The notes under the pieces were generated by a model that had not been told where the DNA came from, ran no database searches, and saw only the letters and a list, made by a program, of their open reading frames with translations. A DNA stretch of 64,000 nt from Haloplanus aerogenes (GTDB taxonomy: Archaea; Halobacteriota; Halobacteria; Halobacteriales; Haloferacaceae), in NCBI RefSeq assembly GCF_003856835.1, contig NZ_CP034145.1, forward strand, positions 2,542,001 to 2,606,000, in the 5' to 3' direction. Positions 8,164 to 59,900 of the stretch are shown in pieces; the stretch's first letter is position 1, and every line of letters starts with the position of its first letter. Made by a program: the position numbers and the translations under genes.

Positions 8164-9678
8164 TCAACTCTCCAGCCGACCGTTCACCACTTTCGCCGCG
8201 ACGAGAACGGGATCCCACACCGGGCTGAACGGTGGCGCGTACGCCAGATCGAGGCGTTCGAGGTCGTTCAGGGTCATCTCGGCCTCGATGGCGGTGGCGA
8301 GCGTGTCGATCCGGATGGCCGCCCGGTCCCGCCCCACGATGGCACCGCCGAGGACCCGTCCGGTCCGCCGGTCGGCGACGAGCGTGACGGTCGTCTCGTC
8401 GCCACCGGGGTAGTAGCCCGACCGCGACCCGGCGGTGATCGTCTCGCTCACGGGGTCGAACCCCGTGTCCGCGGCCACGTCTTCGTCGACGAGACCAACC
8501 CGCCCGCATTCGAGGTCGAACGCCTTCACCACCGCCGTCCCGGCCACGTTGCCGACGGGTGTGGGATCGCCGGCAACGGTCGCCCCGATGGCGCGCCCGG
8601 CGCGATTCGCCGTCAGGCCGAGCGGCACCCACGTCTCCGCCCCCGTCACCGCGTGCCGGGCAGTCGCCACGTCCCCCGCGGCGTAGACGGCGGGGAGGGT
8701 CGTCCGCCCGTAGGCGTCGGTGCGAACGGCACCGCTCGGCCCCCGGGCGACGCCCGTCCCGTCGAGGAGTTCCGTGTTGGGCTGGATGCCGACGCCGAGG
8801 AGGGCCATCTCGACAGGGTAGCGCTCGCCGTCACCGGGCTCTGCCCGGTTGCTCGTGGAACTCCGTTCCACGCTGTCGACGGCTTCGCTGTCTGCCCGAG
8901 TGATCTCCGATCCCTCGCTGTCGTCGGCGACAACGGCTTCGATGCGATCCGCGCCCACCAGTTCGTCGACCACCGTCCCGGTGTGGAGCGTGACGCCCTG
9001 CGCGTCGAGGTGGGGTTCGACGCGTTCCGCGACTGCCGCGCCGAACGGCGGGAGGACGTGGTCGGAGCGCTGGAAGAGATGTACGTCGAGGCCGCGAGCG
9101 GTCAGCGCTTCGGCCATCTCGATACCCACGTAGCCGCCGCCGACGATGGCCACCCGCTCCGGCGGGTCGAGGGCGGCGTTGTGATCGATCAGCGCGTCGT
9201 CGACGGGGCCGTCTCCGAGACGGTCGCGGTCGTACTCGCCGGGCGGGGCGAGGTAGGCGTCGACGGCGGCCGCGCTGTCGAGGCCGTGGATAGTGAAGAC
9301 ACCGTCGAGGCTGGCGTCGAACGCGCCCGTCGTCGCTCGCGCGCCCGTCGCCACCAGCAACTCGCTGTAGGGCTGATCGAAGCGCTCTCCGTCGGTGCGG
9401 ACCGTCACGGTTCGCTCCGTGGGGTCGACCGACACGACTTCGTGTCCGCGCCGCAGGTCGATGCCCCGATCCTCGATGTCCGACGGCGAGAGCGAGAGGA
9501 GGTCGGTCAACCGCTCGACCGACCCCTCGACGAAGTAGGGCAGGCCGCAGTGAGCGTAGGAGACCCACTGCCCTTTCTCGAAGACGATTACCTCGCGGTC
9601 GGCCTCGCGCCGGAACTTGCTCGCCGCGCTCAGACCGGCAGCGTCGCCGCCGATCACGACGAACGGATCGCGTGCCAT
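8164..9678 (-). CDS. CoA-disulfide reductase/NADH oxidase-type flavoprotein
   Basis: A 504-residue pyridine nucleotide-disulfide oxidoreductase. It has an N-terminal FAD fold (VVIGGDAAGLSAASKFRR), the redox Cys in SYAHCGLPYFVEG near residue 44 that marks the CoA-disulfide reductase/NOX subfamily, an NAD fold (VAIVGGGYVGIEMAEAL), the second FAD motif AVYAAGDVA, and a C-terminal dimerisation domain. The likely role is NAD(P)H-dependent reduction of CoA or related disulfides. Between EAVVADD and GERYPVEMALLGVGI there is an extra stretch of about 30 residues (SEGSEITRADSE..., ending RAEPGD). It is low-complexity, foreign to the family and encoded by hairpin-rich DNA. It appears monocistronic. Confidence 0.88.
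   Translation of the reverse strand: MARDPFVVIGGDAAGLSAASKFRREADREVIVFEKGQWVSYAHCGLPYFVEGSVERLTDLLSLSPSDIEDRGIDLRRGHEVVSVDPTERTVTVRTDGERFDQPYSELLVATGARATTGAFDASLDGVFTIHGLDSAAAVDAYLAPPGEYDRDRLGDGPVDDALIDHNAALDPPERVAIVGGGYVGIEMAEALTARGLDVHLFQRSDHVLPPFGAAVAERVEPHLDAQGVTLHTGTVVDELVGADRIEAVVADDSEGSEITRADSEAVDSVERSSTSNRAEPGDGERYPVEMALLGVGIQPNTELLDGTGVARGPSGAVRTDAYGRTTLPAVYAAGDVATARHAVTGAETWVPLGLTANRAGRAIGATVAGDPTPVGNVAGTAVVKAFDLECGRVGLVDEDVAADTGFDPVSETITAGSRSGYYPGGDETTVTLVADRRTGRVLGGAIVGRDRAAIRIDTLATAIEAEMTLNDLERLDLAYAPPFSPVWDPVLVAAKVVNGRLES
8829..8925. repeat. In-frame hairpin-rich insert within the flavoprotein gene
   Basis: About 96 bp encoding a family-foreign linker. It contains three consecutive stem-loops: ACCGGGC-TCT-GCCCGGT, CGTGGAA-CTCCG-TTCCACG, and GACGGC-TTC-GCTGTC (one wobble pair). 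It ends with GAGTGATCTCCGATCCC. Two of its blocks recur at 18541-18597. The edges are approximate. Confidence 0.6.
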
Positions 9679-16511: not shown

Positions 16512-18467
16512 GTGCCCCGAACTGGCTGTGTCGTCACCGAGTTGACTGCCCCGACGCCGGCCGCAGTCACCGGGTTACCTCCGGTGACGACCGACGCTCT
16601 CGTCGTCTTCGGCATCGTCGTCCTCACGCTCGTCCTGTTCGTGACTGAACGGGTGCCCATCGACGTGACCGCCATCTTCATCATGGTCCTCCTGATGTTG
16701 CTGGGGAGCGACGGCGTGGTCAACCTCACCCACATCTCCACCGCGGAGGGCATCTCGGGCTTCTCCAACCCCGCGACGATAACCGTCCTCGCGATGCTCA
16801 TCCTGAGTTCGGGTATCAGCCGGACGGGTGTGGTGCAGATCCTCGGCCGGAAGATGGCCGCCTTCGCCGGCGAGGACCGCGACCGGCAGTTGCTCGCCAC
16901 CATCGGCGTCGCCGGTCCCGTCTCCGGGTTCATCAACAACACGCCCGTCGTCGCCATCCTCGTTCCCGTCATCACCGACCTCGCACACGCGGGCAAGACC
17001 TCGCCCTCGAAACTCCTGCTTCCCCTCTCCTACGCCTCGATGTTCGGCGGGATGCTCACGTTGATCGGCACCTCGACGAACATCCTCGCCAGTGACGTGT
17101 CGGCCCGCCTGCTCGGCCATCCCTTCTCCATGTTCGAGTTCACGTCGCTCGGGGTCATCGTCCTCGTCGCCGGCAGTCTCTACCTCATGACTATCGGTCA
17201 GCGCCTCCTCCCCGAACGCGTCCCCGTGAAAGACGACTACGTGCAGGAGTACGCCATCGAGGAGTATCTGACCGAAGTGATCGTCGAACCCGACTCGCCG
17301 CTCGTGGGGACGACAGTCGAGACGGCCATCGACACGGTGGAGTTCGACGCCGACATCCTTCAGGTCGTCCGCGACGGCGAGGAGTTCATCGAACCGCTCG
17401 GTCACATGATGATCCGCGAGGGGGACGTGCTGCGCCTCCGTGCCGACCGCGAGACGCTCCAGGAACTGGTCGAACGCGACACGCTCACCCTCACCGGCCA
17501 CCCGCCACAGACGGGGGCGGAACTCGAACCGGAGACGGAGGAGGCCCAGACGCTCGTCGAAGTCGTCATTCCCCGGGGCTCCTACCTCGCCGGCAAGTCG
17601 CTGGCGAGTTCCACCTTCCGCCAGCGCTACGACGCGAACGTCCTCGCCTTCCGCAGTCGAGGGGAGACCGTCCGCGACCACATGGACCGCCGGCGCATCC
17701 GCGTGGGGGACACCCTCCTCGTCCAGGCCGCGCCGGACAGCATCGACCGCCTCGCCGACAACGAGGATTTCATCGTCGCCCACGAACCCGACGAACCCCA
17801 CTACCGGACGGAGAAGATTCCCCACGCCATCGCCATCATGCTCGGCGTCGTCGGCTTCGCCGCCGTCCCGTGGGCGCCACTCGGCGGCGCACTCGCCAGC
17901 GTGACCGGCGTCGCCGCCTTCGAGGCCCTCGCCGCGCTCTCGCTTCCCATCCTCGTCACCGCACTCGCGGGCGTCGTCGCCATGGTCGTGGCCGGCGTCA
18001 TGGAACCGACCGAACTCTACGACGCCGTCGAGTGGGACGTGATCTTCCTCCTCGCGGGCGTCATCCCCCTCGGCATGGCGCTGGAACAGACCGGCGGGGC
18101 CGACCTCCTCGGCGCGCTCGTCGCCGCCACTGGCCTCTATCTTCCCGCTATCGGCGTTCTCTGGGTGTTCTACATCGCTACCGGCCTCATCACCGGCGTC
18201 ATCTCGAACAACGCGAGCGTCGTGTTGATGCTCCCCGTCGCCGTCGAGGCCGCGACCCGCATCGGCGCCGACCCCTTCTCCTTCGTCCTCGCGGTGACCT
18301 TCGCGGCCTCCACGGCCTTCCTCACGCCCGTCGGCTACCAGACCAACCTCTTCGTCTACGGCCCCGGCGGCTACAAGTTCTCAGACTACGTCCGCGTCGG
18401 CGCGCCGCTTCAACTGTTCCTCTCCGTGGTGACCGTCGCGGGAATCGTGGCGCTCTGGGGGCTGTGA
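16512..18467 (+). CDS. SLC13 family permease with two TrkA-C domains
   Basis: A 651-residue membrane transporter of the divalent-anion:sodium symporter family. The N-terminal half has helices and the TSTNILASD-type re-entrant motif (GGMLTLIGTSTNILASD). Two RCK_C/TrkA-C regulatory domains follow in the middle (about residues 255-330 and 345-425). The second membrane half has SNNASVVLMLPVAVEAATRI and LTPVGYQTNLFVYGPGGY. The substrate could be sulfate, dicarboxylate or another anion. The start is unsettled: GTG at 16512, or GTG at 16584 just before TTDALVVFGIVV. Confidence 0.9.
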   Translation: MPRTGCVVTELTAPTPAAVTGLPPVTTDALVVFGIVVLTLVLFVTERVPIDVTAIFIMVLLMLLGSDGVVNLTHISTAEGISGFSNPATITVLAMLILSSGISRTGVVQILGRKMAAFAGEDRDRQLLATIGVAGPVSGFINNTPVVAILVPVITDLAHAGKTSPSKLLLPLSYASMFGGMLTLIGTSTNILASDVSARLLGHPFSMFEFTSLGVIVLVAGSLYLMTIGQRLLPERVPVKDDYVQEYAIEEYLTEVIVEPDSPLVGTTVETAIDTVEFDADILQVVRDGEEFIEPLGHMMIREGDVLRLRADRETLQELVERDTLTLTGHPPQTGAELEPETEEAQTLVEVVIPRGSYLAGKSLASSTFRQRYDANVLAFRSRGETVRDHMDRRRIRVGDTLLVQAAPDSIDRLADNEDFIVAHEPDEPHYRTEKIPHAIAIMLGVVGFAAVPWAPLGGALASVTGVAAFEALAALSLPILVTALAGVVAMVVAGVMEPTELYDAVEWDVIFLLAGVIPLGMALEQTGGADLLGALVAATGLYLPAIGVLWVFYIATGLITGVISNNASVVLMLPVAVEAATRIGADPFSFVLAVTFAASTAFLTPVGYQTNLFVYGPGGYKFSDYVRVGAPLQLFLSVVTVAGIVALWGL

Positions 18468-18540
18468 GTTTTTGCCCGCCGCACAGTCCGCCGACGCGCT
18501 GGTGAACGCCGCCGGGACGAGCCTCCGGATGGGGAGTGGC

Positions 18541-18597
18541 GTCACCGGCGCGTAGCGCCGGTTGCCAGAGTGATCTCCGATCCCCCACTGTCGCGGG
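18541..18597. repeat. Intergenic relative of the hairpin insert
   Basis: In the 236-bp convergent gap between SLC13 and BtpA. GTCACCGGCGC-GTA-GCGCCGGTTGCC forms an 8-bp perfect stem-loop, followed by GAGTGATCTCCGATCCC. Both blocks match the insert in the flavoprotein gene at 8829-8925. The insert has about 45 extra bases between the two blocks. No gene was recognised in the rest of the gap (18468-18703). Confidence 0.55.
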
Positions 18598-31656: not shown

Positions 31657-32610
31657 CTACGCGTCCTCCTCTTCGTCGTCTTCGTCGGCGGCTTCCATCT
31701 CTTCGACGAGATCGGCCGCCTCGTCCATCGTCTCTTCGTCGACGTCCTCGTCGAGGTCCTCGGCCTCGTCCTCCTCGTCGGCCTCCGCGTCAGCCGCCGC
31801 CTCGGACGGACCGCCTTCCTCGTCGGGGAGTTCCTCCTCGACGACTTCCTCGACGATCTCCTCGTCGAGACTCTCCTCGATGTCTTCGGGCGTCTCGGTC
31901 GGCACTTCGACTTCCTCGCCCTCGCCGACGTCCGGGATCTCCTCCGGTTCCTCCTCGAGAAGTTCCTCGACGCCGCCGCCGGTCTCGGCCGCCTGCTCGA
32001 CGGGTTCGACGTCGGCGTCCTCGGCGATCTCGAAGTCGTCCGGGAGTTCGGCGCCCGGCGGGATGATCTTCACCGTCACGCCGATGGTGCCGAGTTTCAT
32101 CACGGCGACGCCCTGGCCCTCGTCCACGATGGACTCGGCGGGTTCGCCGTTGTGCTTGATGTAGCCCCGGTTGAACTTCTCGACGCGCGAACGCGCGCCG
32201 GTGACCTTCCCGGACAGGACGATCTCGGCGCCGAGGGCGCCGGCCTCCATGATCCGGTCGATGGTCGTGTGGCCCGCCTTGCGGAAGTACCAGCCACGCT
32301 CGAGGGCGTTGGCCAGTCGGTCCGCGACGATGCGGGCGTTCAGGTCCGGTTCGTCGACCTCCTGTACGTCGATCTGAGGGTCGTCGAGGTCGAAGCGCTC
32401 CTCGAGTTCGGTAGTCACCTTGCGGATGTTCTTCCCACCCTTGCCGATGACCATCCCGGGCTTCTCGGCCTTGAGGACGATCTGGGTCCCCATCGGGGTC
32501 TTGGCGACGTCCATGCCGCCGTAGCCCGCGCGGCCGAGTTCGTCCGCGAAGAACTCGTCGATCTGGGAGCGCTGAAGTCCGTTCTCGATGAACTGGTGTT
32601 CGTCAGCCAT
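31657..32610 (-). CDS. rps3: 30S ribosomal protein S3 (uS3) with long acidic tail
   Basis: A 317-residue mRNA-entry-site protein. It has a KH domain (EKPGMVIGKGGKNIRKVTTE) and the C-terminal S3 domain (GVAVMKLGTIGVTVKIIPPG). About 110 residues after that are almost entirely Asp/Glu with Ala and Val. This acidic extension is seen in haloarchaea. It overlaps L22 by one base. Confidence 0.96.
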   Translation of the reverse strand: MADEHQFIENGLQRSQIDEFFADELGRAGYGGMDVAKTPMGTQIVLKAEKPGMVIGKGGKNIRKVTTELEERFDLDDPQIDVQEVDEPDLNARIVADRLANALERGWYFRKAGHTTIDRIMEAGALGAEIVLSGKVTGARSRVEKFNRGYIKHNGEPAESIVDEGQGVAVMKLGTIGVTVKIIPPGAELPDDFEIAEDADVEPVEQAAETGGGVEELLEEEPEEIPDVGEGEEVEVPTETPEDIEESLDEEIVEEVVEEELPDEEGGPSEAAADAEADEEDEAEDLDEDVDEETMDEAADLVEEMEAADEDDEEEDA

Positions 32611-36243: not shown

Positions 36244-37095
36244 TTACTCCGTGAGTGTCAGGGGCGCGAGCGACGCGAACATCGCTTCCTCCGTTCGCAC
36301 CGTCTCGCTTCCCTGTCGCGGAATCGTATTCAGCCAGAGGTCGAACCCCGGATCGGGTTCGACGCCCTCGCCGCCGCGTGCGGCTACGTCCTCGACAGCC
36401 ACGTCGAGGATGGCCGGAAGGCCGCGCCCGGGCGCCCCAAAGGCGACCGTCAGATCGCCAGCGTCGTCGATCCGCCCGACCAGTTCGGTCAGGCGACCGA
36501 CCGACAACTCCGTCCCGTGGACGGACGTGGCGATCCGAACCCCGGCGTCGGGGCGGGCCAGCGCTTCCGGCAGGTCCGCGCGTCGGATCTCGAACCCCGG
36601 CAGGGGTTCGTCGACGATCCGGGCGCGGACGGGTTCTCTCGAAGAGATCCTGATGGCGACGCGCTCCCCCTCCTCGGCCGACATTCCGTCGGGGACGAGG
36701 AGAGAGATTGGGTGTTGCAGTCCGCAATTGACCCGGACGCGGCCGTCAGGTCCGACCTCGGTCACGATTCCCTCTTGTAACGACCCCGGACGCTCGGGTC
36801 CGGAGCCGGTCCGTGACGAGACGCGAAGGGGCGGCAACACGCCGACGTACTCCAGTTCGTCCCGCGTGCCCCACACCTCGGTTTTGAGGTAGGGGGGCGT
36901 CGCGGCGTACCGCAGGACCGTCTCGACGAACCCGCCTCCCCATCGGCGCTCGCCTTCCGAATCGGGGAAGACGACCAGCCGATCCGCCCGGAACACTGTC
37001 GCCGCGCGGGCGACGTAGCCGAGTTTGCGAGTTGCCTCGCGTTTGTCCTCGGCTTCCCGGACGAGGGAAGACGGCACGAGCACGCTGAGCGTCAT
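36244..37095 (-). CDS. Putative RNA uridine N3-methyltransferase (SPOUT, DUF171/C9orf114 family)
   Basis: A 283-residue knotted (SPOUT) methyltransferase-family protein. It has TLSVLVPSSLVREAEDKREA, YVARAATVFRADRLVVFPDS, YLKTEVWGTRDELEYVGVLPP, and the C-terminal knot region GFDLWLNTIPRQGSETVRTE. A central OB-like insert is typical of the family. It likely modifies rRNA with SAM. It is the first gene of the S10 ribosomal operon, ahead of L3, a conserved archaeal arrangement. Confidence 0.88.
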   Translation of the reverse strand: MTLSVLVPSSLVREAEDKREATRKLGYVARAATVFRADRLVVFPDSEGERRWGGGFVETVLRYAATPPYLKTEVWGTRDELEYVGVLPPLRVSSRTGSGPERPGSLQEGIVTEVGPDGRVRVNCGLQHPISLLVPDGMSAEEGERVAIRISSREPVRARIVDEPLPGFEIRRADLPEALARPDAGVRIATSVHGTELSVGRLTELVGRIDDAGDLTVAFGAPGRGLPAILDVAVEDVAARGGEGVEPDPGFDLWLNTIPRQGSETVRTEEAMFASLAPLTLTE

Positions 37096-39661: not shown

Positions 39662-41191
39662 ATGACTGACGAGGGTGGTGGCGGCGACGGTGCCGATGGG
39701 AGCCGCCTCGAACACCTTCTCGACCGCATGACCGACGGGATCTTCGGCCTCGACGCCGACTGGCGATTCACGTATCTGAACGAGACGGGGCGGTCGGTCA
39801 TCTGTGACGCCGCCGGCGAGACGTTCACGGCCGACGAACTCGTCGGGCAGAACATCTGGGACCTCTTGCCCGAGGCTCGCGAAACGACGTTCGAGGAGGA
39901 GTACCGCGAGGCGATGCGGACACAGGAGCAGACCGCGTTCGACGAGTACTACGAACCGCTCGACGTGTGGTTCGACGTGCGGGTGTACCCCTCTGAGACG
40001 GGGCTCTCGGTCTGTTTCCGCGACGTGACCGAACGTCGGCGGCAACGCGAACGGCTCCAGACCCGCGAGGCTGTGTTGCGGGAGATGTACGACGCCATCG
40101 CCGACCGCGACGCCGCGTTCGAGGAGCGGGTCGACGACCTCCTGCGGATCGGTCAGCGCGCCCTCGGAACGTCCTACGGGACGCTCTCGCGCGTCGAGGG
40201 CGACGAGTACGTCTTCGAAGTGGTTCGGTCGCCAGGCGACATCGAGGAAGGCGACGTGGTCGACCTGTCGGCGACGAACTGCGAACAGATCGTACTCGAC
40301 GAGGAGACGCTCGTCCTCGAGAACGTCGCCGAGGACGCGCCGGATCTCACCGACAAAGCAGGGTACGAGGAGTGGGGCATCAGTTGCTATCTCGGCGCGC
40401 CAGTGATCGTCGACGACGAGGTGTACGGGACCTTCTGCTTCTACGACACCGAACCCCGGACGGAGCCGTTCTCAGACTGGGAGATCACGCTCGTCGACCT
40501 GATGGGTCGGTGGGTGAGCGTCGCGCTGGAGCGCAAACTCGCTCAGGAACGCCTCCGCCACCAGAACGACCGACTCGAAAAGTTCGCGACGCTTGTCTCG
40601 CACGACCTCCGGAACCCGCTCAACGTCGCGGACGGGTGGCTCGACATCGCCAGCGAGGACTGCGAGAGCGAGGCGATCGCGAAGATCGAGGCCTCTCACG
40701 ACCGGATGCGGGCACTCATCGACGACGTACTGGCGCTGGCGCAGGCGGGGCGCACCGTCGACGAACCGACGGAACTCGACCTCGGACAGGTTGCAGCCGA
40801 CGCCTGGCAGCAGGTCCGAACCGGGAACGCCACGCTCGCCGTCGACCTCGACCACACCGTCAGCGGCGACCGATCGCGGCTCCAGCAACTGTTCGAGAAT
40901 CTGTTTCGGAACAGCGTGGAGCATGGCTCCACGACCGACCGACCGGCGACGAGCGGTATCGCCGTCGAAGTCGGCACGCTCCCCGGTGGCTTCTACGTCG
41001 AGGACGACGGCGTCGGCATCGACGCCGCCGACCACGAGCGCGTCCTCGAATTCGGCTTCTCGACGGCCGAGAACGGGACGGGTGTCGGCCTCGGCGTCGT
41101 CGAAGATATCGCCACCGCACACGGCTGGACGGTGGCCGTCACCGAGAGCGACGCGGGCGGCGCACGCTTCGAGTTCGCGAACATCACCTGA
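39662..41191 (+). CDS. PAS-GAF sensor histidine kinase
   Basis: A 509-residue cytosolic sensor kinase. It has an N-terminal PAS domain (DRMTDGIFGLDADWRFTYLN), a GAF domain (about residues 130-285, DEVYGTFCFYDTEP), and a HisKA helix with phospho-acceptor His near 314 in VSHDLRNPLNVADGW. The ATP-binding domain has an N box (FENLFRNSVEHGS), a D box (DDGVGID) and a G box (GTGVGLGVV). There is no membrane segment. No cognate receiver gene is nearby. The N box is followed by STTDRPATSG, a haloarchaeal-style insert. Confidence 0.93.
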   Translation: MTDEGGGGDGADGSRLEHLLDRMTDGIFGLDADWRFTYLNETGRSVICDAAGETFTADELVGQNIWDLLPEARETTFEEEYREAMRTQEQTAFDEYYEPLDVWFDVRVYPSETGLSVCFRDVTERRRQRERLQTREAVLREMYDAIADRDAAFEERVDDLLRIGQRALGTSYGTLSRVEGDEYVFEVVRSPGDIEEGDVVDLSATNCEQIVLDEETLVLENVAEDAPDLTDKAGYEEWGISCYLGAPVIVDDEVYGTFCFYDTEPRTEPFSDWEITLVDLMGRWVSVALERKLAQERLRHQNDRLEKFATLVSHDLRNPLNVADGWLDIASEDCESEAIAKIEASHDRMRALIDDVLALAQAGRTVDEPTELDLGQVAADAWQQVRTGNATLAVDLDHTVSGDRSRLQQLFENLFRNSVEHGSTTDRPATSGIAVEVGTLPGGFYVEDDGVGIDAADHERVLEFGFSTAENGTGVGLGVVEDIATAHGWTVAVTESDAGGARFEFANIT

Positions 41192-56981: not shown

Positions 56982-59900
56982 ATGGACGACGCCGACGACG
57001 TCAGCGACCAGTACGCCCCCGAGGACGTGGAGTCCTCGGTGAACGCGTACTGGGACGAACACGACGCCTACGAGGCGGCGAAGGAGGCCCACGCGGACGA
57101 CCCGCCCTTCTTCTTCGTCGACGGCCCGCCGTACACGAGCGGCCAGATGCACCTCGGCACGGCGTGGAACAAGACGCTGAAAGACGCCATCCTCCGCTAC
57201 AAGCGGATGTCGGGGTTCGACGTGACCGACCGCCCCGGCTACGACATGCACGGCCTCCCCATCGAGGTGAAAGTCGAGGAGGAACTCGGTTTCGACTCCA
57301 AGAAGGACATCGAGGAGTACGGGATGGAGGCGTTCATCGAGGAGTGCAAGTCGTTCGCCGAGGAAAATCGGGAGAAGATGGACGAGGACTTCCAATCCAT
57401 CGGCGCGTGGATGGACTGGGACGACCCCTACCGCACGGTGTCGCCGGAGTACATGGAGGCGACGTGGTGGGCGTTCCAGCAGGTCCACGAGAACGGCCTC
57501 GTCGAACGCGGCAAGCGCGCCATCAACCAGTGTCCGCGGTGTGAGACGGCCATCGCCGACAACGAGGTCGAGTACCACGAAATCGAGTCCCCCTCCATCT
57601 ACGTCAAGTTCTCCCTGCAGGACCGCGAGGGCTCGCTCGTCATCTGGACGACGACGCCGTGGACCATCCCGGCCAACGAGTTCGTCGCCGTCGACCCCGA
57701 GATGACGTATCAGGCCGTGGAAGCGACGAAGGACGGCGAGACGGAGACGCTCTACGTCGCCGAGCCCTGCGTCGAGGACGTCCTCCGCGAGGGCCGGTAC
57801 GAGGACTACGAAGTCGCCGCGGAGTTCACGGGCGAGGAACTCGTGGGCTGGCAGTACGATCACCCGCTGGCCGACGAGGTGCCGGATCACGCCACCGGCG
57901 AGGGTGTCGGGCAGGTGTACGCCGCCGACTACGTCGAAGCCGACCGCACCGGTCTCGTCCACTCCGCACCCGGCCACGGGCAGGAAGACTTCGAACGCGG
58001 GCAGGAACTCGGTCTGCCCGTCTTCTCGCCCGTCGCCGGCGACGGCACCTTCACCGACGAGGCCGGGGCGTACGCCGGGCAGTTCGTCCGCGACGCCAAC
58101 GACGACATCATCGCGGATCTGGAGGCGAACGGCCGCCTGCTGTCGTCGGGCACGCACTCTCATCGCTACGGACAGTGCTGGCGGTGCGATACGGACATCG
58201 TCTACCTCGCCACCGACCAGTGGTTCATCACCGTCACCGACGTGAAAGAAGAGCTGTTGGAAAACATCGAGGACAGCGAGTGGCACCCGCAGTGGGCACG
58301 GGACAACCGGTTCAAGAACTTCGTCGCGGACGCCCCGGACTGGAACGTCTCGCGCCAGCGCTACTGGGGGATTCCGCTGCCCGTCTGGGTGCCCGAGGAC
58401 GACCCGAACCCGAGCGCGGAGGACATCCTCGTCGTCGGCACGCGCGAGGAACTCGCGGAGCGTGCGGATGGGGAGGTCGACCCCGAGACCATCGACCTGC
58501 ATCGCCCGAGCGTCGACCCCATCACCATCACGGAGGACGGCACCACCTACGAGCGCGTGCCGGACGTGTTCGACGTGTGGATCGACTCCTCGGTGGCGAC
58601 GTGGGGTACCCTCGACTATCCGGGTGAGACGGAGGCGTTCGACGACCTCTGGCCCGCCGATCTGATCGTCGAGGCCCACGACCAGACCCGCGGCTGGTTC
58701 TGGTCGCAGTTGGGCATGGGCACCGCCGCCCTCGGCCAGATTCCGTACGAGGAGGTCGTCATGCACGGCTTCGCCAACGACAGCGAGGGCCGGAAGATGT
58801 CGAAGTCGCTCGGCAACATCGTCACGCCACAGGAGGCCATCGACCGCTTCGGGCGTGACCCCCTGCGCGCCTACCTCATGAGCCACGATCAGCACGGCGT
58901 CGACCTCTCCTTCGAGTGGGAGGGGCTGGGCGAGATGCAGTCGACGCTCAACATCTTCTGGAACGTCTTCCGATTCCCCCTGCAGTACATGGCACTCGAC
59001 GACTACGACCCCGCCGATGCCGACCTCTCCGATGGGGAACTGACCGTCGTCGACGAGTGGGTGCTCTCGCGCCTGCAGTCCGTCAAAGCTGAAGCCAGCG
59101 AGGCGTGGGACGACTACGCCGTCCACGACGCACTCAACGCCGTCCTCGAGTTCGTCACCGAGGACGTCTCCCGCTTCTACGTGAAGGCCATCCGGGAACG
59201 GATGTGGGAGGAGGCCGACTCGGCCTCGAAACGCGGCGCCTACGCCACGCTCGCGACGGTCCTCGACGAGACGATTCGCCTGCTGGCTCCCGTCACCCCC
59301 TACCTCGCGGAGGAGATGTACCAGATCCTCGACGGCGAGGCGACGACGGTCCACCAACTCGCCTATCCGACCGTCGACGACGACTGGCACGACCCCGACC
59401 TCGAAACCGACGTGGCCGTCCTCCGGGCGGTGGAGGAAGCGGCGGCGAACGCCCGCCAGCAGGGTGGTCGCAAGCTCCGCTGGCCCGTCCCGCGCGTGAT
59501 CGTCGAGACCGAAGACGCCGACGTGGCCGACGCGGTGCAGTCACTCTCCGACCTGCTGGCCGACCGGGTGAACGCCCGCGCCATCGAGGTGGTCGACGCC
59601 TTCGACGAACTGGTCGAACGCGCCGAACCCGAGATGGGCGTGATCGGTCCCGCCTTCGGCGGCGACGCACAGGAGGTCATGGCGGCGGTCGAGGGTCTGC
59701 GCCGTGAGGACCTCGAAGCCGACGACTTCGTCGTCACCGTCGACGGCGAGGACTACGAGTTGACCGACGAGATGGTGTCGTTCCGCGCCGAACCGCCAGA
59801 GAACGTCGCCAGCGCCGACTTCGACCTGACCCTCGACGGCGACCGCACGGGCGGCACCGTCTACGTCGACACGTCGCTGACCGACGACATCGAGTCGGAG

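Follow-up and report, generated by a model that had tools for sequence, protein, structure and literature searches.

The gene under study lies in a 64,000-nucleotide stretch of the Haloplanus aerogenes genome (hereafter the window) and encodes a flavoprotein of 504 residues resembling CoA disulfide reductases and NADH oxidases (Table 1). Its product contains the Pfam domains Pyr_redox_2 (5e-53) and Pyr_redox_dim, and its top relatives in the PDB are NADH oxidase 6ruz and CoA disulfide reductase 3kd9. The open reading frame runs through a hairpin-rich insert of about 93 bp, as proposed in an earlier sequence-only reading of this DNA. The peptide encoded there, DSEGSEITRADSEAVDSVERSSTSNRAEPGD, is flanked by VVAD and GERYPVE. 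The insert consists of two tandem 45-bp units, each combining a hairpin A with a hairpin B (loops of three bases, stems of 6-9 bp), and RGCA and GACAG spacers connect the hairpins. On the coding strand the first unit reads GACAG CGAGGGATC-GGA-GATCACTCG GGCA GACAGC-GAA-GCCGTC and the second GACAG CGTGGAAC-GGA-GTTCCACG AGCA ACCGGGC-AGA-GCCCGGT GAC. The stem-loops had been recognised from the sequence alone, but as three; there are four, two perfect and two with one mismatch. The mismatch-free form of hairpin B1, GACGGCGAAGCCGTC, is found at a separate locus (L048), and CGTGGAACTCCGTTCCACG does not recur in the 64-kb window (0.06 occurrences expected when up to 3 mismatches are allowed).

Table 1. 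Positions of the flavoprotein gene, its insert and related copies in the window
Feature	Position	Strand	Basis
CoA-disulfide-reductase/NADH-oxidase-like flavoprotein gene, 504 aa	8164..9678	-	ORF, Pfam and PDB relatives
In-frame hairpin-array insert, two tandem 45-bp units	8830..8922	-	about 93 bp longer than congeners
Hairpin A1, CGAGGGATC GGA GATCACTCG, 9-bp stem with one mismatch	8897..8917	-	sequence
Hairpin B1, GACAGC GAA GCCGTC, 6-bp stem with one mismatch	8878..8892	-	sequence
Hairpin A2, CGTGGAAC GGA GTTCCACG, perfect 8-bp stem, triloop	8854..8872	-	sequence
Hairpin B2, ACCGGGC AGA GCCCGGT, perfect 7-bp stem, triloop	8833..8849	-	sequence
Second unit of the insert, best covariance-model match in the window	8828..8877	-	70.7 bits, E 1.8e-22
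Decayed intergenic copy, between ORFs ending at 18467 and 18704	18539..18592	-	31.0 bits, E 1.5e-8
Partial copy in a histidine-kinase N box (FRNSVEHGST; GTGGAGC ATG GCTCCAC)	40910..40952	+	30.5 bits, E 2.2e-8

The insertion site is empty in each of the seven orthologues recovered from the same genus, and of about 100 haloarchaeal homologues nearly all run from the V..D stretch directly into GER... In an AlphaFold2 model, residues 256-279 fall in a turn between two strands and form the sole segment with pLDDT below 50, a value to be expected anyway because the alignment holds little other sequence there. Such a placement, together with a shorter, unrelated extension at the same site in the Haloplanus LUM.53 homologue, would also suit an ordinary variable linker or low-complexity loop. 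Yet the stretch is missing from the homologous flavoproteins whose alignment had been suggested as the check for such a linker, the same sequence family occurs in dozens of unrelated genes, and its palindromes covary at synonymous sites (see below). The empty sites and the genome-wide copies lead us to reject the linker, which is barely credible.

Distribution, host genes and insertion sites

A covariance model built from ten copies gives 53 matches at E<=1e-5 in the H. aerogenes genome, so that the search proposed in the sequence-only reading did find further copies. Partial copies were recovered by BLASTN, and a search for the spacer pattern returned 32 matches against 6 for the reversed control. 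With the same model, matches are present in 99 of 119 genomes of the family-level sample and in 153 of 195 of the order-level sample, whereas outside the order only 2 of roughly 160 genomes of the phylum sample matched, both weakly. The element also resides on named haloarchaeal plasmids of Natrinema, Salinigranum, Halobacterium and Halocatena; a single exact-pattern scan of viral contigs gave no match. Within H. aerogenes, nearest-neighbour sharing of alleles is weakly above chance (0.44 vs 0.31, sd 0.08), where strong sharing had been expected.

The model also clarifies two relatives of the insert in the window. The motif repeat noted at 18.57 kb is indeed related, but it is a decayed intergenic copy. 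The resemblance of DSVERSSTSN to the SVEHGSTT stretch of the kinase at 40.9 kb holds at the DNA level, where GTGGAGC-ATG-GCTCCAC copies hairpin A; the kinase N box is thus not merely similar to the insert but contains a copy of its unit. Two other matches, at 31973-32019 (in the acidic tail of a KH-domain, ribosomal-protein-S3-like ORF) and at 58381-58436, are probably due to chance and were set aside. These data support the initial interpretation of the insert as a palindromic element. The proposed archaeal family of coding-tolerant palindromes exists as copies throughout the genome, but its module is a 45-bp unit with two hairpins and not a single palindrome.

About 44 of 50 own-genome loci are genic, as judged from ORF extent, codon-position GC and inspection of the peptide reading, and these copies share the same strand and codon phase. 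Stops are rare in five of the six frames (2-7 of 117 copies, against 38 in the sixth), and therefore stops alone do not explain this bias. The reading in use is the only clearly net acidic one (+2.0 per copy vs -0.1 to -3.3 in the other five), which suits the protein surfaces of halophiles. Hosts identified by Pfam or clear sequence identity include a Mre11-like phosphoesterase, endonuclease III, MutS, photolyase, PDH E1, chorismate synthase, TruB, PhzF, a P-type ATPase and an MFS carrier. Histidine-kinase N boxes account for 11 of the 50 loci, and most copies are in genes without homology to kinases. The presence of DNA-repair genes among the hosts (Mre11-like, endonuclease III, MutS and photolyase; L191, L196, L242, L184) echoes the frequent location of intragenic bacterial REPs in repair genes (PMC3733652).

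In twelve hosts, the flavoprotein and 11 others, comparison with congeners reveals an indel of about 36-93 bp with clean boundaries, nearly always at an Asp codon; about 33% of positions would have an Asp within a stretch of four residues by chance. For AroC, MutS and PDH the insertion also occurs, intact or decayed, in some relatives. The most informative case is an MBL-fold nuclease gene, in which the empty site, also seen in sister species, reads GTC GAC GAC GGC. The form GTC GAC [45 bp ending GAC] GAC GGC occurs in two congeneric species and in a single species from another family, and a third genus has GTC [45 bp ending GAC] GAC GAC GGC. Three lineages have thus gained exactly 45 bp adjoining GAC, at two positions separated by 3 bp, and this displacement suggests repeated insertion. 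Short-tract transfer between species is also possible for the three nuclease insertions, given their common hairpin B, and a tolerance of loops rich in Asp could account in part for the GAC at the junction.

Several other arrangements were encountered in the wider sample. In genus g14 (L332-L334, L336, L343), long near-identical arrays of several hairpins also occupy apparently non-coding DNA, and several of them end in a common GACCTCGCGCGTGCT tail. The plasmid-borne mercuric reductase gene merA carries the element at one shared site in Salinigranum rubrum and Natrinema zhouii (L402 901-934, L403 901-943), and the hairpin B loop is longer in one of the two copies. In other genomes, further conserved enzymes, apparently aconitase/LeuC-like and inositol-phosphate-synthase-like proteins, have the element at a common site in two genomes each (L329, L347, L339, L344).

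Maintenance of the palindromes at the DNA level

Over 117 copies, 98.4% of cells are standard pairs and 302 double changes are observed vs 93.5 after shuffling, in a sample picked in part by a model that itself rewards pairing. Free of that selection is a test on the VEHGST peptide pattern, sought in any codons in 293 genomes, with 150 listed hits analysed. Among these listed hits, the synonymous third positions of V and S pair in 126 of 150 (expected 69, sd 5.6) and those of E and G in 111 of 150 (expected 66, sd 5.8), whereas non-partner controls are much nearer expectation (56 for 44 and 46 for 41). Because the hits are related by descent, this departure from expectation should not be read as a formal probability. 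Since the VEHGST peptide is constant, selection on the protein cannot explain this pairing. Stems covary even at synonymous codon positions, and the palindrome is therefore maintained at the level of DNA.

The hairpins are carried by the coding strand, as would be the case for a structured, regulatory element of the mRNA. However, pairs are almost strictly Watson-Crick, with G-U in 0 of 146 cells in one set and in fewer than 10 of 1665 in another, the gene positions of the copies vary, and Rfam has no match above the gathering score at 8829-8925. The near absence of G-U pairs led us to reject an RNA element, which is most improbable.

Among 238 hairpins, 236 have C-G as the pair that closes the loop, and triloops of the form GNA outnumber their complement TNC by 96 to 23. 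C-GNA-G is an unusually stable DNA triloop; this stability and the excess of GNA point to the coding strand as the folded strand. Among the spacers, GGCA was counted 56 times, AGCA 37, GACAG 26 and GACA 11. A separate feature concerns tandem VEHGST units 45-51 bp apart in kinase loci (e.g. G274, G474, G258), where the third position of Val differs between 17 of 18 neighbours, as though neighbouring hairpins of the same sequence were either avoided or lost by deletion.

Origin and relation to known mobile palindromes

Copies are dispersed, sites are empty in relatives, insertion is exact to 45 bp and recurred at one site, frame and strand are biased, and stems covary at the level of DNA. In view of these observations, the insert is very probably one copy of a family of protein-coding palindromic elements spread across the haloarchaeal order. 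The mobile unit of about 45 bp would comprise AGC, a hairpin A with a C-G-closed triloop, RGCA, a hairpin B and GAC, and would insert singly or as tandem arrays, typically beside a GAC (Asp) codon. Copies in the acidic, hydrophilic reading would survive within the surface loops of functional proteins, most other readings being purged; such survival is expected since the unit length is a multiple of three, stops are few and one of six readings gives an acidic, hydrophilic loop peptide.

In-frame palindromes that code for protein are known mainly from Rickettsia and relatives. The Rickettsia palindromic elements (RPEs; Ogata et al. 2000/2002) are bacterial and measure about 150 bp (PMC10969869, PMC3733652). 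As described there, they are dispersed palindromes in frame in unrelated working genes, encode a conserved peptide and have some intergenic copies. The haloarchaeal element likewise inserts in frame in unrelated hosts with a conserved peptide reading, and TruB genes host both. The same accounts describe a unit of about 100-150 bp forming one palindrome, whereas the haloarchaeal element, a feature of Halobacteria, consists of 45-bp units with two triloop hairpins, in arrays and with freely varying stems. It works like an RPE, a likeness of behaviour and not of aligned sequence, the model having been run on Halobacteriota only.

Short tagged hairpins, arrays and occasional copies within ORFs, often in repair genes, are also typical of REP/BIME sequences with their RAYT transposases, whose palindromes bear GTAG and CGTC tags (PMC3733652). 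In Haloquadratum, PATEs have near-terminal, IS605-like palindromes around a core, and SMRs are repeats of about 80-110 bp, bounded by terminal inverted repeats and inserted mainly in other mobile elements (PMC3119063). These too are haloarchaeal repeats without a transposase, and PATEs carry palindromes. The present element could be a non-autonomous IS200/IS605 derivative such as a PATE, or a REP, mobilised by a Y1/RAYT transposase acting in trans: the single-strand hairpins, the short constant tag by the hairpin and insertion beside a fixed short motif all fit, PATEs are established in Haloquadratum (PMC3119063), and H. aerogenes itself has three Y1 genes. Nevertheless, Y1_Tnp counts and copy number are uncorrelated over 119 family genomes (Spearman rho -0.05, p 0.57), and 13 genomes with at least 10 copies lack a detectable Y1 gene. 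At the hairpin foot RGCA and GACAG (spacers GGCA, AGCA and GACAG) take the place of GTAG or CGTC. REPs are mainly extragenic, whereas most own-genome loci here are in genes; PATEs and SMRs differ from the element in that it lies in frame in host genes, and the SMR architecture differs from a 45-bp unit in housekeeping genes. The loci inspected, by eye and not by alignment to IS605 ends, showed neither IS605-like ends nor a core or IS605 gene between the hairpins. The lack of correlation with copy number led us to reject Y1_Tnp/RAYT as the driver, and movement in trans by such an enzyme is improbable. The search for Y1_Tnp/RAYT genes in the H. aerogenes genome and the 119 family genomes yielded no mobile machinery for the element.

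Another explanation dispenses with mobility altogether. The repeat would have been born in kinase N boxes (SVEHGST) and spread by recombination between paralogues and between species, its arms being palindromic only through template switching. The share of N boxes among own-genome loci and the abundance of VEHGST units across the order are compatible with such an origin. Template switching has been suggested for nematomorph mitochondria, whose coding genes contain perfect inverted repeats of up to 284 bp (PMC6649704); these resemble the present case in their concerted arms but have not been presented as a sequence family with dispersed copies. Insertions are nonetheless precise beside GAC, mostly in genes without kinase homology, and one gene has the same site filled in separate lineages. 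We regard this explanation as rather unlikely, though deserving of attention.

For the mobile element, the hairpins would act as DNA, probably as single-stranded coding-strand DNA during replication or repair. Their arms would be kept identical by self-templated correction, selection for mobility or both; for the correction, quasi-palindrome template switching is about an even prospect. New copies might be inserted at C^GAC in a hairpin-dependent manner, while DNA is replicated or repaired, by a machine other than a Y1 (IS200/RAYT) transposase, a route we propose tentatively. With similar reserve, these steps could be combined into an order-wide and possibly still active system, in which 45-bp double-hairpin cassettes are delivered to C^GAC by a hairpin-dependent machine and become in-frame loops in essential proteins, with the shape of the hairpin and not its sequence being recognised, so that stems drift while remaining palindromic.

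Our search, which covered the open-access literature, found no description of the element and nothing on VEHGSTS, so that its novelty is provisional. Compared with Rickettsia, the haloarchaeal case is far wider and concerns a different domain of life and genetically tractable organisms. Each unit adds about 15 amino acids, in dozens of unrelated working genes per genome. The copies amount to insertion experiments performed by nature in enzymes of DNA repair and metabolism, and represent a measurable conflict between DNA and protein inside codons. They also explain the odd DSEExxSSGSRxxADD and VEHGST repeats of haloarchaeal proteins, which might otherwise pass for motifs with a function. Separately from the element, the window holds on its reverse strand (36650-36749) a strong Rfam match, in this haloarchaeon, to the L4-Archaeoglobi ribosomal protein leader (72.9 bits).
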